Assembly (NCBI GenBank): GCA_014874455.1
Contig: JADBJL010000079.1
Location: forward strand, 1 to 62,812
DNA length: 62,812 nt
From: Thermomicrobiaceae bacterium
GTDB taxonomy: Bacteria > Chloroflexota > Chloroflexia > Thermomicrobiales > Thermomicrobiaceae
Reading direction: 5' to 3'
Below are positions 51,237 through 57,998 of this stretch, piece by piece. Below the pieces are notes generated by a model that saw only the letters and a program-made list of their open reading frames with translations, ran no database searches and had not been told where the DNA came from. Positions within the stretch are counted from its first letter, which is position 1. Every line of letters begins with the position of its first letter. Made by a program: the position numbers and the translations under genes.

Positions 51237-52040
51237 CTACAGGTCATGTTGCAGCCAGCTCAGGGGGAACTGCTCGCCGCCCGGTATTACGAGCTCGCGG
51301 TCGCGGGCAAGGATCGTGACTGTCCCTGCTCCGTACACCAGAGCGGTTCCCGACTGCGGCTCGATGATACAGGCGGTGTGCTCGTCGATACCGAGAACTA
51401 CGGCCTCGGGAGGCAGCATACGCCGGAGGTAGCGAAAGCGCTCGACCCCCATGAAGCAGCGGCTCGTGTCCAGCTCTCGGCCGCCCTCGGCATTGTTCCA
51501 GTGCGGCATCACCGCCACGCAGAGTCCGAGCTCCGAAAGCAGGTCGAGCCCGTCGCTCCAGGATAGATCGGCCCCGGCTTTGTAGACCTCATAGACCGGC
51601 AGCGCATAGCGGCCGGTCGCGATGGCGGCCGCGCTGGCGAAGGCGACAGCGGCTCCGGAGCGCCACCGCTCCAGGAGCAAGGCCAATGTCCGCGTCCCGC
51701 GCAGGTGTTTGACCATATAGGTGGGGCTACCCGGCCCGGCGAAGAGGTAGTGGGCCCAGAGCAGCGGCTCGGTGACGATCGGGGAGTCAGGGTCGTAAAC
51801 GCCGTCGCGCCGACGGGCCGGGACGAAGCGAACCTCGGGGCGCAAGTTGACGAGGCTCTGAACGAAGAAGTCGCGGATCCTCGCCGCGACCAGGCCGGCA
51901 TTGGGTTGGAAGCCGGCCGGCGTCTCGATGATGGCGATCCGTACCGGCGGGGAGAAGCGGCTGAGCAGGCGCTCGTGCACCTGGCGGCCTTGCTTCGAGG
52001 TCTCGCCGGAACCGAACAGGGCGACAGGGCCGAGCGTCAT
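51237..52040 (-). CDS. Type 1 glutamine amidotransferase-like / S51-like protein
   Basis: The 267-residue protein resembles cyanophycinase/S51 peptidase folds: VALFGSGETSKQGR at the start, YLFAGPGSPTYMVKHL, and VAFASAAAIATGRYALPVYEVYKAG. In cyanophycinases the nucleophile is the Ser of GTSAGA; here the corresponding stretch reads FASAAA, so the Ser is kept but its surroundings differ. It may be an uncharacterised hydrolase. ATG 52040 follows GGAGAAG; the frame is open to 52139. It is isolated. Confidence 0.75.
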   Translation of the reverse strand: MTLGPVALFGSGETSKQGRQVHERLLSRFSPPVRIAIIETPAGFQPNAGLVAARIRDFFVQSLVNLRPEVRFVPARRRDGVYDPDSPIVTEPLLWAHYLFAGPGSPTYMVKHLRGTRTLALLLERWRSGAAVAFASAAAIATGRYALPVYEVYKAGADLSWSDGLDLLSELGLCVAVMPHWNNAEGGRELDTSRCFMGVERFRYLRRMLPPEAVVLGIDEHTACIIEPQSGTALVYGAGTVTILARDRELVIPGGEQFPLSWLQHDL

Positions 52041-52322: not shown

Positions 52323-53075
52323 TCACCGCACGGCCTCGAGCACGTAGGGCGACCAGTAGAGCACGATCGAGCCGCCAGCGACCACCAGCAGCATGGCGGC
52401 GACTGTCTGCACGTAGGGCATCGCCCGCCGCAGCGCGGTGACGACGCCGGCCTTCACCAGGGCAATGGCGAGGGTCAGCGTGATGACCACACTGGCCATG
52501 CCCAGCCCGTAGCTGAGGAGCTGGACGAAGCCCCGGCCCAGGCTGCCGCTGATCAACGCGCTGCCGGCAGCGATCATGAAGACGGGCAGCGTGCAGCTCA
52601 GCGAGCACAGGCCGTAGGTCAGTCCGAAGAGGAAGAAGCCGTGGAGACTTCGCTCTCGGGAGTAGCCGATGCGATCGGCGAGCTGCTCGAAGAGCGCCGG
52701 GCTGAAGGTGCGCCCGGCCAGCATGGCCAGGCCCAGCAGCACCAGCCCTACCCCGATCGTGAGCCCGATCCACGGCATGACCGGCAGGAGGAAGCGGCCG
52801 CCAGCCGATATCACCGCTCCGGCGGCCGCAAACAGCACGACGAAGCCAGCCGACACCGTTCCGCCGACGACAATAGCTTCCGCCAGCCGCCGCACCCCGC
52901 TGCGCTGATCGGGCTGCCCGCCCGCTCCGAGGTAGAGCGCCAAGTAGGCCGGCAGCATGGCGAAGCCACACGGGTTCACCGCCGCGATCATCCCGGCGCC
53001 GAAGGCATAGCCCACCGGTAACCAGATGACCAGGGTCGACAGCCACTGTGCGGCCTGGGCTTGCAGCTCGCTCAC
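52323..53075 (-). CDS. ccdA: CcdA-family thiol-disulfide membrane protein
   Basis: The 250-residue membrane protein has six hydrophobic segments and both redox Cys in their family settings: AAVNPCGFAMLPAYLALYLG in TM1 and YGLCSLSCTLPVF in TM4. CcdA moves electrons from the cytosol to extracytoplasmic thioredoxins. Its immediate upstream neighbour, a thioredoxin-like gene that would be the usual partner, is broken. The gene is last in the leftward mercury-resistance run. It may supply reducing power for exported Cys or metal-handling proteins. Confidence 0.9.
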   Translation of the reverse strand: MSELQAQAAQWLSTLVIWLPVGYAFGAGMIAAVNPCGFAMLPAYLALYLGAGGQPDQRSGVRRLAEAIVVGGTVSAGFVVLFAAAGAVISAGGRFLLPVMPWIGLTIGVGLVLLGLAMLAGRTFSPALFEQLADRIGYSRERSLHGFFLFGLTYGLCSLSCTLPVFMIAAGSALISGSLGRGFVQLLSYGLGMASVVITLTLAIALVKAGVVTALRRAMPYVQTVAAMLLVVAGGSIVLYWSPYVLEAVR

Positions 53076-53227
53076 GGTTCCCCCCGCAGTAACCGGTCGA
53101 GTACCTATCGCAACTGCTCGGACGAGGTCGGCCCATAGTCCACGCAGGCGACTCGCCCTTGCTCGTTGATGATAATCGTCTGGTCGAGCGTGCGCACGTC
53201 GCGCAGCCGGGTCAGCGTCTGGTCTCT

Positions 53228-53255
53228 ATCGATGGCCCAGGATCGATGGCCCAGG
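53228..53255. repeat. 14-bp perfect tandem duplication
   Basis: ATCGATGGCCCAGG is present twice in immediate succession (53228-53241 and 53242-53255). In the minus-strand redoxin gene it inserts two bases modulo three and breaks the frame; deleting one copy gives continuous family-like protein. This looks like a recent slippage event. Confidence 0.93.
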
Positions 53256-53583
53256 GTGAGGCCGCCACCTCGCGACCTGCCAGCTCCCAAAAGCTCGCGA
53301 GCGTGCCCGGCGTATCGGACGGATCCACCTTAAGCAGGAGCACGTTGAGCCCGCGCTGGTGGTATTCCGGGTAAAGCCTCGCCCATGCCCTAGCTTCAGG
53401 GATACTGGAGAGGCACCAGCCCCCATTGTGAAGATCGCCACCACCCGGCCGCGGTGCTCATCGAGGCGGAACTCCGTCCCATCGAGAAGCCGGGCAGTGA
53501 GATCGAAACCCTCGCCGGCCGACTCCGGCGAGGCCGCAGTCGAGCCTGCTGTGCTCGGAGGCGCGCCGGCCTGCGGAGCGGTG

Positions 53584-53613
53584 ACCTTGCTGCTCGGTAG
53601 CGAGCAGCAAGGT
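53584..53613. repeat. Perfect 13-bp hairpin inside the redoxin pseudogene
   Basis: ACCTTGCTGCTCG and its complement CGAGCAGCAAGGT enclose a 4-base loop, within the linker part of the redoxin gene. Neither side is followed by a T tract. It could attenuate transcription between merE and ccdA, but its strength is the only evidence. Confidence 0.6.
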
Positions 53614-53920
53614 GGATGGGTGGCCGGTGGGCGGGCTTCAATCGACACCAGAGCGGGAGAGTTCCCTCGCGTCACCGCTTCCGGCTCGGCTCGCGGGTTC
53701 GGTACCAGTGGCCAGGCTGGTCGGGTGAGCGCTGCAGTCGGATCTCCTGCTGGAGCGACCGCCAGCACCGGGGGTGGCGGCACCACAGGGGGACTGGGCC
53801 CCCGGGGAAGACGCTTGGCCCGGCGGTGTGGCCGAGAACCAGCGCCAAGCCCACGGCGATGAAGCCGGCGAGGCTCCTCCCGAGTCAGGAATGCCGGAGC
53901 AGGCGCGGCAGTGCGAGAGA

Positions 53921-54241
53921 CTAGCCATCAGCTCGCTCCTCTCGCGGTGCAGGCGGCATGCTCATTGGCAGCCGAGCTGGCGCGCAGCAGGACTGCGCCC
54001 GCTCCTCCAATGGCTCATTACCGGTTCCGCGGGTGGGCTCTAACCCCGCCTTTGCCTCCCGGCGGCCGAGCAGCAGCCCGGCGACGGCTCCGGCGAAGAT
54101 GAGGCTCATCGCTGCAAAGAGCCAGAGCTGGTGCGCCGCGAGCGCTCCCCCGATGGCCGTGCTCCCGAGGAGGGCGAGTAGGATGGGTAGGTGGCAGGGA
54201 CAGGTGAGAGCGGCGAGAACACTCAGGGCCCAGCCCTTCAT
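53921..54241 (-). CDS. merE: MerE-like mercury transporter with C-terminal Cys pair
   Basis: The 106-residue protein has the MerE core: LAALTCPCHLPILLALLGST in the first membrane segment with Cys14 and Cys16, then a second segment. MerE moves mercuric or methylmercury ions across the inner membrane. Unlike usual MerE it has a long C-terminal tail with a vicinal pair at Cys85-Cys86 (QSCCAPARLP). ATG 54241 is chosen; the frame is open to 54289. It lies 13 bases after the regulator gene in the mer run. Confidence 0.85.
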   Translation of the reverse strand: MKGWALSVLAALTCPCHLPILLALLGSTAIGGALAAHQLWLFAAMSLIFAGAVAGLLLGRREAKAGLEPTRGTGNEPLEERAQSCCAPARLPMSMPPAPREERADG

Positions 54242-54254
54242 CGCCGTCGCCTCG

Positions 54255-54692
54255 CTACATCCGCGTGCAGGCGATGATCGCCTCAGCATGGTCGGCCAGC
54301 ATGTCCTTGGCCAGCGCCAGGAGCAGCGGCACCCGCTGGTCGGCGACCCGGTAGTAGACGAACTTCCCTGCGCGGCGGGCCGACACGTAGCCGCAGCCTC
54401 GCAAGCAGGCGAGGTGCGATGAGACGCGCCCCTGCGGCTGACCCAACCGCTCGACCAGCTCGCTCACGTTCAGCTCGCCCTCCCGGATCAGCAGGTCGAG
54501 GATGCGCAGCCGGGTCACGTCGGTGAGCCCGCGAAAGTACTTCGCCAGCAGTTCGGCTTGCCGGCGCGCCTCCTGTGCCTCGATCCGGCGCGTGAGGCGG
54601 CGCCCTAACCGGGGGTGCAGCGTGCTCTGCTCCGCCTCCCCGTCTCGCGGGGCCTCTCCGGTGATCAGCTCCCTCTCCTCATACGTTCCCAT
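54255..54692 (-). CDS. ArsR/SmtB-family metal sensor, CmtR-like
   Basis: The 145-residue regulator has a winged helix (residues about 45-120, with VSELVERLGQPQGRVSSHL as recognition helices). Its Cys pattern, Cys96-x3-Cys100 in HLACLRGCGYV plus Cys142 near the C terminus (IACTRM), is that of CmtR-type Cd/Pb sensors and of ArsR-type MerR regulators from actinobacteria. Metal binding releases the operator. It lies between merA and merE, so it probably represses this operon and perhaps merB. ATG 54692 starts a long polar N-terminal leader. Confidence 0.9.
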   Translation of the reverse strand: MGTYEERELITGEAPRDGEAEQSTLHPRLGRRLTRRIEAQEARRQAELLAKYFRGLTDVTRLRILDLLIREGELNVSELVERLGQPQGRVSSHLACLRGCGYVSARRAGKFVYYRVADQRVPLLLALAKDMLADHAEAIIACTRM

Positions 54693-54729
54693 AGCCAGGC
54701 TCCTCACCAACTCTCTCGCACCCAGCGAC

Positions 54730-56385
54730 TCACGCGCAGCAGGACAGCTTCGCCACGTCTCGCTCGAACGCCAGCGCTGCCAGCCGCAGGCCCTCGGCCA
54801 TCGTCAGGTAGGGCGCGAAGCTCTCGACCAGATCGCCGACCGTCAGCCGGTGCTTCACCGCCAGCGTAGCCGCGTAGATCATCTCGCCAGCATGTCGCCC
54901 GACGGCCTGGACTCCCAGGACGCGCCCGCTCTCCCCGTCGGTCACCATCACCACGCCACCCTCGGACGCCAGGTCGACGCGCGCCCGGGCGATCGCCTGG
55001 GCCGGCACGAAGGCGCTCTCGACGCGGTAGCCCTGTTGCTCTGCCTCGGCTCGCGTCAGCCCGACCACGGCCACCTGCGGGTCGGTGAAGATCACCTCCG
55101 GCACCGCAGAGAGGTCGGCCGGCTCTTCCAGGCCCAGCACCGCGTTCCGCGCGGCGAGTCGCCCCTGGTAGGCGGCCACGTAGACGAACTGCGGCGCGAG
55201 GGTAACGTCGCCAGCGGCCCAGACCCGGGGGTTGGTCGTGCGCAGCGTCTCGTCCAGCATCGGGGCGCCGCGCTCGTCCAGGGCGACACCAGCGCGCTCC
55301 AGGTCGAGCGCTTCGGTATTCGGCCGCCGGCCGGCCGCCACGAGGATCTGCTCGACCTCGAGCGCCTCCTTACGCCCATTCCGGAGCACTACCAGCCGGC
55401 GGCCCCGCCTCATGCGCTCGACCCGCAGGATCCGCGTCCCGGTCAGCACGGTCGTCCCCAGCCGCTCGAGGGCCGCACCCATCGCCTCGGCCACCTCTGG
55501 CTCGTAATCGGGCAGCAGGCGCGGCCGGCGCTGCAGGAGCGTGACCTCGCTGCCCAGCGAGCGGAAGACCTGCCCGAGTTCCAGCGCCACGTAGCCGGCC
55601 CCGATCAGGCCGAGCGAGCTCGGCAACCGGTCCAGCTCCATGGCGCTCGTGCTCGTCAGGTAGCCGGCCTCCTCGAGCCCCGGGATCGGCGGCACAGATG
55701 GACGAGCGCCGGTGGCGATCAGGAAGGCGCGCGCTCGCACCACCCGGTCACCGACCGCCACCGAGTCAGGGCCAGCGAACCGGGCGCGGCCACGGACCAG
55801 CTCCCAGCCGTAGTAGGCGATCAGCTCCTCGTACTTCTCGCGCCGCAGCTCGGCGGACAACTCGCGCTTCTGGGCGACCAGCCGATCGAACTCCACGCCG
55901 AGCACGGCCGTGTGCACGCCAGCGTAGCCATGGTGACCTGCCTCGTGGTAGACCTTCGCCGCCCGGAGCAGGAACTTGCTGGGCACGCAGCCCACGTTGA
56001 CGCAGGTGCCGCCGATCGTGCCCTCTTCGATCATGATGACGCGCGCGCCGAGCCCGGTGGCCGTGATCGCCGCGCTGAACGCCGCCGAGCCACCGCCGAG
56101 GATGACCAGGTCGGCGTCCACCCCAGCGGGGGAGAACACGACCGGCGCTGGCCCCGGCTCTTGCATCTCGACGATCTGGCCCGGGGTATACCCGGCAGCC
56201 TGCACCGCGCGTTGCAGGGCCGAGAGATCGGCCCCATCGGAGACGGTGAAGGTCGCCTCGCCACGTCTCCAGTAGGCCCGCACGCCGCGTGCGCCCTCAG
56301 CCTGCAGTGCCCGCTCGATCGTTACCTCGCAGTGCGCGCAGGTCATACCGGCGATCGCCATCCGATAGGCTTGCTCGCCCTTCAT
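54730..56385 (-). CDS. merA: Mercuric reductase
   Basis: The 551-residue flavoenzyme has every MerA feature: an N-terminal HMA domain with GMTCAHC (Cys16, Cys19), the redox disulfide in GGTCVNVGCVPSKF (Cys128, Cys133), FAD and NADPH binding motifs, and a C-terminal SCC pair (Cys549-Cys550) that hands Hg(II) to the active site. It reduces Hg(II) to volatile Hg(0) with NADPH in the cytosol. It follows the membrane protein by 18 bases and precedes the regulator. Confidence 0.97.
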   Translation of the reverse strand: MKGEQAYRMAIAGMTCAHCEVTIERALQAEGARGVRAYWRRGEATFTVSDGADLSALQRAVQAAGYTPGQIVEMQEPGPAPVVFSPAGVDADLVILGGGSAAFSAAITATGLGARVIMIEEGTIGGTCVNVGCVPSKFLLRAAKVYHEAGHHGYAGVHTAVLGVEFDRLVAQKRELSAELRREKYEELIAYYGWELVRGRARFAGPDSVAVGDRVVRARAFLIATGARPSVPPIPGLEEAGYLTSTSAMELDRLPSSLGLIGAGYVALELGQVFRSLGSEVTLLQRRPRLLPDYEPEVAEAMGAALERLGTTVLTGTRILRVERMRRGRRLVVLRNGRKEALEVEQILVAAGRRPNTEALDLERAGVALDERGAPMLDETLRTTNPRVWAAGDVTLAPQFVYVAAYQGRLAARNAVLGLEEPADLSAVPEVIFTDPQVAVVGLTRAEAEQQGYRVESAFVPAQAIARARVDLASEGGVVMVTDGESGRVLGVQAVGRHAGEMIYAATLAVKHRLTVGDLVESFAPYLTMAEGLRLAALAFERDVAKLSCCA

Positions 56386-56403
56386 CCTGCCCCTCCGACT
56401 GCA

Positions 56404-57009
56404 CTAATTCCCGCCTCGCGGAGCCGGTGCGCTCTCTCCCTCACCGAGCCGGCAGCAGTTCGCCGCTCGCGCCCGGTTCCGGCCGCTCCTCGCACGCCAG
56501 CGCGGAGCGAGCTGGCCGGCCCCTCGCAGGGCAATCGCGGCGCCGAGCGCGACCAGGAGGACCTGCTGCCGGTGCACGAACACGACGTACAGCGGATGAG
56601 TCCCGAGGAGGAAACCCCGTTCGAACTCCCACAGCAGCCGGAGCGAGCCGAGGCCGATGGCCAGCCCGCCGAGCGCCACGCCCACGAGCCGGCCGATCCG
56701 GTCGTGGGACAGACGCGCAGCGAGGAGCTCGACGCTGCTGAGCGCGATCAGGATCGTCGCCTCGTAGCGGATGAGCAGGTGGAAGGCTGCCGCCCCGCCG
56801 ACGGCGTAGAGCGCGAGCGACAGCCACTGGATGACCAGCCAGCTACAGCAGGCGAGGGCGCTCAGCGACGCGAACCCCAGCGCGGCTGCCGCGTCGAGCG
56901 GTATCGCCCAGTGCTGGTACCTCCGGTGCTTCTGGTGGCCGATCGAGCGCGTCACCTGCTCGCTCTCCGGTGCGCCCGCGACTTTCCTTGCCGACTCGAC
57001 GAGATTCAT
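56404..57009 (-). CDS. Unrecognised membrane protein heading the mer operon, with Cys pairs
   Basis: The 201-residue product has about five hydrophobic segments. The first (FASLSALACCSWLVIQWLSL) carries vicinal Cys54-Cys55, as MerT does in its first segment, and the C-terminal tail carries Cys185-Cys186 (AANCCRLGEGE). MerT is only about 116 residues with three segments, so this is not a standard MerT. Vicinal Cys pairs bind Hg(II), and the location before merA suggests uptake or delivery of Hg(II) to MerA (inference). ATG 57009 overlaps the operator-like repeat; a later GTG in frame is an alternative start. No merP is present. Confidence 0.7.
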   Translation of the reverse strand: MNLVESARKVAGAPESEQVTRSIGHQKHRRYQHWAIPLDAAAALGFASLSALACCSWLVIQWLSLALYAVGGAAAFHLLIRYEATILIALSSVELLAARLSHDRIGRLVGVALGGLAIGLGSLRLLWEFERGFLLGTHPLYVVFVHRQQVLLVALGAAIALRGAGQLAPRWRARSGRNRARAANCCRLGEGESAPAPRGGN

Positions 57010-57036
57010 ATTCGCACATCCGTATATCACTGTCAA
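57008..57036 (-). promoter_or_regulatory. Mer promoter with operator-like inverted repeat
   Basis: On the minus strand TTGACA (57036-57031) is followed by ATATACG-N6-CGAATAT at 57027-57008, an inverted repeat with one mismatch. The 17-base-spaced -10 is GAATAT, weak, and overlaps the right arm. The A/T-rich palindrome is of the ArsR/SmtB operator type and stands out in this GC-rich region. If this is the promoter, the annotated start codon at 57009 must lie at or just beyond the -10, so the true start may be downstream. Confidence 0.55.
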
Positions 57037-57362
57037 GAGTCATCACGGCTAAGCGCTCGCCAGAATTTTCACCCCCTACCCATTTGCTCTTCTTCCACAT
57101 CAGCGCGGGGCAGAAGCCACGCACAAGCTACGCAGACACTGGCGCCAGCGACGGAGAGGCAGCTCTCGCTCTGCGCTCGCTACCGGCGCCGAGTACCGCG
57201 CTGGAGGATACATCGGAAACAGCGTATACTTCGGCCGCAGCTCGCGCTCGCGGCCGGCGGCGCTCTTCCCCGGCACTTCCCTGGGCCATGGCCCTGCCAC
57301 GTGGCTGCGGGCGTAGCCTCGCGGGGCGGTAGCGTCCAGGGCTCGGACGGAAGGGGGACAAC
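57037..57362. other. Divergent intergenic region between mer operon and merB
   Basis: No gene is seen. A TATACT box lies at 57225-57230, directed to merB, with no good -35. The transcript would have a leader of about 125 bases. A GGGCCATGGCCC palindrome lies at 57283-57294. Open frames here are short and without features. Confidence 0.45.
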
Positions 57363-57998
57363 ATGACACACGCGGATCCCGGCGCTCGGGACGCGCTGGC
57401 GCAGCACTGGCTGGCCTGCGCGGCTCAGCAGCGTCATACGGTCGAATACCGCCTGGCGTGCCTCGCGTTCGAGGCGATCGCAGCCGGGCGCCCCCTGTCG
57501 CTCGCCGATGCGCAGGCCGTGCTCGGAGTGACGCGCGAGGGCGCCCGAGAGCTGATCGAGCGCATGGCCGGACAGGGCCGTCTCACGCTCGACGAGCGCG
57601 GGGAGGCCATCGTCGCAGCCGGCGGGCTCTCGCTGATCCCGTCCAGGCACCGCCTGTTGCTCGACGGCCGGCAACTCTACACCTGGTGTGCGCTGGATGC
57701 GGTGGGCATTCCGGCCGGTCTAGGCGTAGACGCCCGCGTCGAGAGTCGCTGCGCCGCCTGCGGGTCGCCGGTCTGGCTGGAGATCGAGGCTGGTGAACTC
57801 CGCCGTGCTTCCCACCCAGACCTCTCGCTCTCGCTCGTCGCACCCGACCTCAACCGATCGCTGCGCGATGGCGTCTGCACGGAGATCGGCTTCTACTGCT
57901 GCCGGCGAGCGGGCCAGACGATCCCGCACGACGTCGTTTCGCTGGCGGGCGCTTTAGAACTCGGGCGCGAGCTGTTCAGGCATGGCCCACCGATCTGA
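57363..57998 (+). CDS. merB: Organomercurial lyase
   Basis: The 211-residue protein matches MerB: an N-terminal winged-helix-like domain and the catalytic core LYTWCALDAVGIP with Cys109 and Asp112, then Cys172 in GVCTEIGFYCC. The 63-residue spacing between Cys109 and Cys172 equals the Cys96-Cys159 spacing of the R831b enzyme, and Asp112 corresponds to Asp99. It cleaves the C-Hg bond of methylmercury, giving Hg(II) for MerA. ATG follows GGAAGGGGGAC. It is divergent from the mer operon. Confidence 0.93.
   Translation: MTHADPGARDALAQHWLACAAQQRHTVEYRLACLAFEAIAAGRPLSLADAQAVLGVTREGARELIERMAGQGRLTLDERGEAIVAAGGLSLIPSRHRLLLDGRQLYTWCALDAVGIPAGLGVDARVESRCAACGSPVWLEIEAGELRRASHPDLSLSLVAPDLNRSLRDGVCTEIGFYCCRRAGQTIPHDVVSLAGALELGRELFRHGPPI

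Follow-up and report, generated by a model that had tools for sequence, protein, structure and literature searches.

The stretch of DNA that was analysed (hereafter the window) is 62,812 nucleotides long and comes from a genome of the Thermomicrobiaceae that is close to Thermalbibacter longus (locus L003). Its minus strand carries, in order, the gene of a membrane protein named CysTM here, merA, a CmtR-like arsR, a MerE-like gene, a redoxin remnant and a CcdA-like gene (Table 1). This gene order and strand had been given in a preliminary description of the locus, and both were borne out by the open reading frames and the profile matches. The divergent merB gene was missing from that description, as it is placed outside the interval it covered (52323-57009).

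Table 1. Genes and sequence features of the mer locus in the window. TM, transmembrane segment; "over" and "cut-off" refer to the cut-off of the model named.
Feature	Position	Strand	Basis and remarks
CcdA/DsbD-TM-like protein	52323..53075	-	DsbD_TM 22.5, below cut-off 27.1
Broken TlpA/ResA-like redoxin	~53105..53550	-	Compared with the intact redoxins of L012 and L003
MerE-like small membrane protein	53921..54241	-	CPC in TM1 and CC in tail; PF05052 28.4 over 22.8
ArsR/SmtB-family metalloregulator	54255..54692	-	CmtR-like Cys pattern CLRGC...C; NF033788 84 bits over 55
merA, mercury(II) reductase	54730..56385	-	TIGR02053 566 bits, cut-off 454
CysTM, 4-TM protein, 183 aa	56404..56955	-	Probable GTG start at 56955; conserved family, invariant CC
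Operator-like palindrome ATATACGGATGTGCGAATAT before CysTM	57008..57027	-	Common to five held-out merA loci
TTGACA box	57031..57036	-	17 nt before GAATAT (57008-57013); weak -10
Second, weaker operator-like site on the merB side (ACATCGGAAACAGCGTATAC)	57210..57229	+	Tentative; 12.2 bits
merB, organomercurial lyase	57363..57998	+	PF03243 75.5 bits over 27

MerA has an N-terminal HMA domain with the motif GMTCAHC (PF00403, 27.7 over 24.8), so that the CxxC of NmerA is present, and its C-terminal end is a Cys pair. The regulator had been described as ArsR/CmtR-type; the ArsR part of this assignment holds, but the CmtR model (NF047906) was missed with 54 bits against a cut-off of 150, and the general ArsR metalloregulator model alone was passed. 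The MerE-like protein scored 38 with the NCBIfam MerE equivalog model, below its cut-off of 80. Two frame breaks interrupt the redoxin remnant, and its CxxC has become CxxS (WCLSS) with loss of the second Cys. The CcdA-like protein is 93% identical to its orthologue in L003, and a further orthologue in L102 scores 35, over the DsbD_TM cut-off. MerB has the MerB-type Cys-Asp-Cys triad (C..D..C), as read from the sequence, and orthologues with 81-86% identity occupy the same position in L003 and L004. The conserved cluster probably reaches past ccdA to an S51-peptidase-like gene at 51240-52040 on the minus strand (PF03575, below cut-off). An S51-peptidase-like gene is also found 3' of an unlinked arsR-ccdA cluster in Thermomicrobium genomes (L101, L102).

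The CysTM gene had been read from ATG 57009, a start which was discarded in favour of GTG 56955. The latter is probably correct because the ATG overlaps the last bases of the operator-like palindrome, the upstream frame is lost in relatives, and the resulting spacing fits that of other loci. The stretch between the two codons is out of frame in L003 and L004 (7-nt and 1-nt indels), and L003 has no ATG at the matching position; from the GTG onward the frame is preserved in both. With this start the palindrome lies about 53 nt upstream of the gene, and the distance elsewhere is 46-68 nt (46 in L003, 52 in L013, 54 in T. roseum and 68 in L015). The protein is then of the same length as that of T. 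roseum. Both of the Cys pairs noted in the preliminary description are real, but with this start the numbering Cys54/55 changes: the first pair is Cys36/37, in TM1, and the tail pair is Cys167/168.

Four TMs were predicted by hydropathy for five of the seven CysTM members, with five in L012 and three in T. roseum. Based on the four TMs and on the positive-inside charge topology, both termini are probably inside the cell and the tail Cys pair is therefore probably cytoplasmic. The AlphaFold model of CysTM, built from a two-row alignment, was too poor to bear on the fold (pLDDT 56).

No match to CysTM was found in Pfam, NCBIfam or PDB sequences, and nothing meaningful in PHROGs. Relatives are present in 7 of the 61 genomes of the order that were examined. 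None were found elsewhere in the class or on viral contigs, and the 400 genomes of the phylum gave only chance matches; the weak phylum-wide matches at L056-L059 were rejected as such, having no CC and no mer genes. Beyond the phylum the search covered close relatives and plasmids, and the plasmid search returned T. roseum alone. The protein of T. roseum DSM 5159 (WP_012643299.1) is labelled 'hypothetical protein' and its gene overlaps merA. Within the data searched the family is thus seen in Thermomicrobiales only, and a deeper search may widen this range. No published description of CysTM was found in the literature searched, and the T. roseum genome paper makes no mention of mercury.

Seven sequences with 30-66% identity to the window CysTM share 20 invariant columns of 153 ungapped ones, and these include both TM1 cysteines (CC in 7/7) and the motifs QWL, GG, RxE and FxxRQ. 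The tail Cys pair is found in six of the seven, as CC in five and as CxxxxC in one, and T. roseum has two separated cysteines.

In the window, L003, L004, L012, L015 and T. roseum, CysTM is the gene immediately preceding merA. The ends of the two genes overlap in L012, L015 and T. roseum, and the overlap of 4 nt in the last two suggests translational coupling. In L014 the gene lies between a divergent arsR gene and merB (arsR<>CysTM-merB). In L013 (genome G025) it is the first gene of an operon that also encodes a small CPC-motif protein and two redoxins; the merA of this genome is found on that contig too, at a distance of about 262 kb. Every relative found adjoins merA, merB, arsR or merE-type genes. 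A protein encoded near CysTM-merB in L014 (7748-8530, minus strand), in tandem with arsR, has a C-terminal heavy-metal-associated domain (PF00403, 38.8 bits) and is a possible MerP stand-in.

Co-occurrence with merA, which the preliminary description had put forward as a check, held in one direction: all seven CysTM genomes are among the 13 of the 61 that have merA over cut-off (Fisher p 4e-6, with kinship not corrected). Homologues lacking merA and the Cys pairs, which that description had named as a refutation, were not encountered; the CysTM of G025 is away from merA, yet the genome has merA and the protein keeps its pairs. At five Thermomicrobium loci merA has no intact CysTM next to it, although G025 keeps its CysTM elsewhere. 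In G020 the gene is broken by stops and a frame break, and in G021 and G023 the DNA that separates the palindrome from merA (0.7-0.9 kb) holds faint CysTM-like traces (weak matches, E about 0.002-0.005). As merA is kept where no intact CysTM adjoins it, CysTM is an accessory of the mer system and not an essential part. In two Thermomicrobium genomes (L064 8500-9453 and L066 8050-8926) the HMA domain of merA is seemingly degraded, and the DNA from the operator-like site to merA contains faint remnants of CysTM.

The operator-like palindrome is 20 bp long with a consensus of roughly GCATACGGAnnTnCGTATGC. A model built from five CysTM-upstream sites was then applied to five held-out merA-only loci (67,694 bases). 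Each of them has a match of ≥18 bits before merA, and ten Markov controls and the remainder of the window gave no site. The stringent pattern RYATACGGNNNNNCGNATRY has a single site in the window genome, before CysTM; it occurs once in G025, also before CysTM, and in G021, G023 and G026 it is confined to the position before merA. There is one further unexplained site in each of G018 and G019. In G025 an operator-like site is found before the CysTM operon (L013 8434) and before the distant merA (L060 8622), and since both units carry it they are probably co-regulated. The weaker site on the merB side scores 11.5 bits in L003 and 13.8 in L004. The TTGACA box and GAATAT form a possible promoter overlapping the operator-like site; the box was not listed by a consensus promoter scan. 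ArsR was considered as the binder of the palindrome and this was unsupported, there being no such site near the unlinked arsR-ccdA clusters of Thermomicrobium. A variant palindrome, ATATTCGATTATGnTnATAT, lies just before merA in two order-level relatives (L014 3602 and L061 4949). A perfect palindrome resembling the mer operator-like site, GTATACGGGTTCCCGTATAC, is present in Thermalbibacter longus (L089 1501) away from mer, between two divergent genes with a GntR/MocR-like gene on one side.

These associations bear on which metal is involved. Cys pairs bind soft metals in variety, and CmtR-type regulators sense Cd/Pb in mycobacteria, from which it could be argued that CysTM carries another soft metal (Cu, Cd or As) and merely travels with mer. 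This is very improbable, however, given that CysTM is always found with merA, merB or merE-type genes, that it has the operator-like site of merA, and that no Cu, Cd or As genes stand beside it in the loci read.

The CysTM protein was compared with known mer membrane proteins. The preliminary description had set MerT aside by size. Profile checks against MerT, MerC, MerF and MerE gave no match; for the Pfam profiles of MerC and MerT this was the case at E<=10 in all six members scanned. Neither MerT nor MerC was found in the window genome. MerC (PF03203; Tn21), like CysTM, has four TMs, one Cys pair in TM1 and another in the C-terminal tail, and is encoded directly before merA. CysTM has the MerC layout by hydropathy, but it has 183 aa and CC where MerC has about 140 aa and CxxC in TM1, and the CysTM motifs QWL, GG, RxE and FxxRQ were not found in MerC. 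A 2012 survey recorded merC in no group other than the beta/gamma-proteobacteria (PMC3466566).

It is possible, if somewhat unlikely, that CysTM belongs to the MerC/MerT superfamily and has strongly diverged within it, with the same mechanism and an ancient kinship. The common layout would fit this, as would the hhalign score against MerC, which at 28.1 (P 0.001) was the best of all comparisons and aligned RYE with QYE. However, this score was reached by 5 of 100 local shuffles (and by 0 of 100 in another shuffle set), the alignment begins past the Cys pair, the profile-profile scores for MerT and MerH were at noise, and Pfam matches are lacking as described above. The profile-profile comparison, with a score not above the local-shuffle controls, does not support calling CysTM a MerC.

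MerT (PF02411) shares with CysTM the vicinal CC in TM1, a second Cys pair on the cytoplasmic side and the setting in a mer operon. It has three TMs with the second pair in a cytoplasmic loop, whereas CysTM has four with the pair in the tail, and no MerP is encoded beside CysTM; with no profile match in addition, CysTM was not assigned to MerT. MerH of Mycobacterium marinum pMM23 resembles CysTM in its length of about 170 aa, the CC in TM1 and the four TMs, and likewise in its mer operon with merA/merB and an ArsR regulator, a type of mer regulator that is already known (PMC3466566). It is without the tail pair and the CysTM family motifs, and as no significant alignment to it was obtained, CysTM was not assigned to MerH either. 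In another Chloroflexota genome, an ORF (L080 1381-2103, minus strand) combines a part resembling glutaredoxin with a MerT-like membrane part that contains CC and matches MerT weakly. The best reading of these comparisons is that CysTM represents a new family, functionally parallel to MerC and MerT and without detectable sequence kinship to them.

A Cys pair in TM1 is a trait of known mer uptake proteins, and the N-terminal domain of MerA takes Hg(II) from proteins. CysTM is, on balance, likely to be an inner-membrane Hg(II) carrier of the mer operon that feeds MerA, a role proposed because of the TM1 pair, the tail pair, the frequent translational coupling and the lack of MerT and MerC in the genome. 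Hg(II), probably as a thiol complex, would first bind to Cys36/37 in TM1 and then move to the tail Cys pair. From there MerA would receive it at its N-terminal HMA domain and reduce it to Hg(0). Hg(II) released by MerB inside the cell would go directly to MerA. The initial suggestion that the protein may be a new mercury carrier is thus supported by its linkage to mer genes, by the invariant TM1 Cys pair and by the operator-like site in common with merA, all of which are read directly from the DNA. The view that CysTM works like MerC and MerT stands; uptake, its direction and the hand-over we infer from MerT, MerC and MerE. Uptake by MerT and by MerE depends on the Cys pair in TM1 (PMC5715351).

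The MerE-like protein of the window operon could be the actual carrier. CysTM could also be a membrane partner of another kind, i.e. a redox acceptor for redoxin/CcdA, an anchor of MerA, or a sensor or exporter of Hg. It does occur in operons with TlpA-like redoxins and CcdA (L012, L013), and in G025 it is next to redoxins and not to merA. This is nevertheless improbable, as CysTM-merA in T. roseum and L015 and CysTM-merB in L014 have no adjoining redoxin or CcdA, and as the vicinal TM1 Cys pair is a hallmark of mer uptake proteins.

As a putative Hg(II) carrier, CysTM is a testable candidate for Hg(II) entry, with predictable active cysteines, in thermophilic lineages without MerT/MerP. The gene merA is thought to originate in hot environments. 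If the assignment is true, T. roseum and its relatives would acquire an annotation for Hg(II) uptake, and the solution of a Cys pair in TM1 would be seen in at least one family without detectable kinship to the known ones.

The redoxin/CcdA part of the CysTM loci has a precedent in actinomycete mer operons, for which TrxA-like and CcdA proteins have been tabulated as mercury transporters; redoxin and CcdA genes are counted there among the mercury-resistance proteins, but the tables contain no CysTM-like protein (PMC12195606). A bolder reading, which we regard as doubtful, is that CysTM founds a carrier family unrelated to MerT, MerC, MerF and MerE, and that the fuller operons of L012 and L013 have a substitute for MerP. 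Hg(II) would there be collected outside the cell by a lipoprotein redoxin that has an additional C-terminal Cys pair and is kept in the reduced state by CcdA, and thermophilic Thermomicrobiales would have a thiol-relay mer system of their own. Redoxin 1 of these operons could be such a collector in the place of MerP. This protein (L012 10532-11428, plus strand; L013 6788-7477, minus strand) has a lipobox-like N-terminus, a CxxC and an extra Cys pair near its C-terminal end (GCC).
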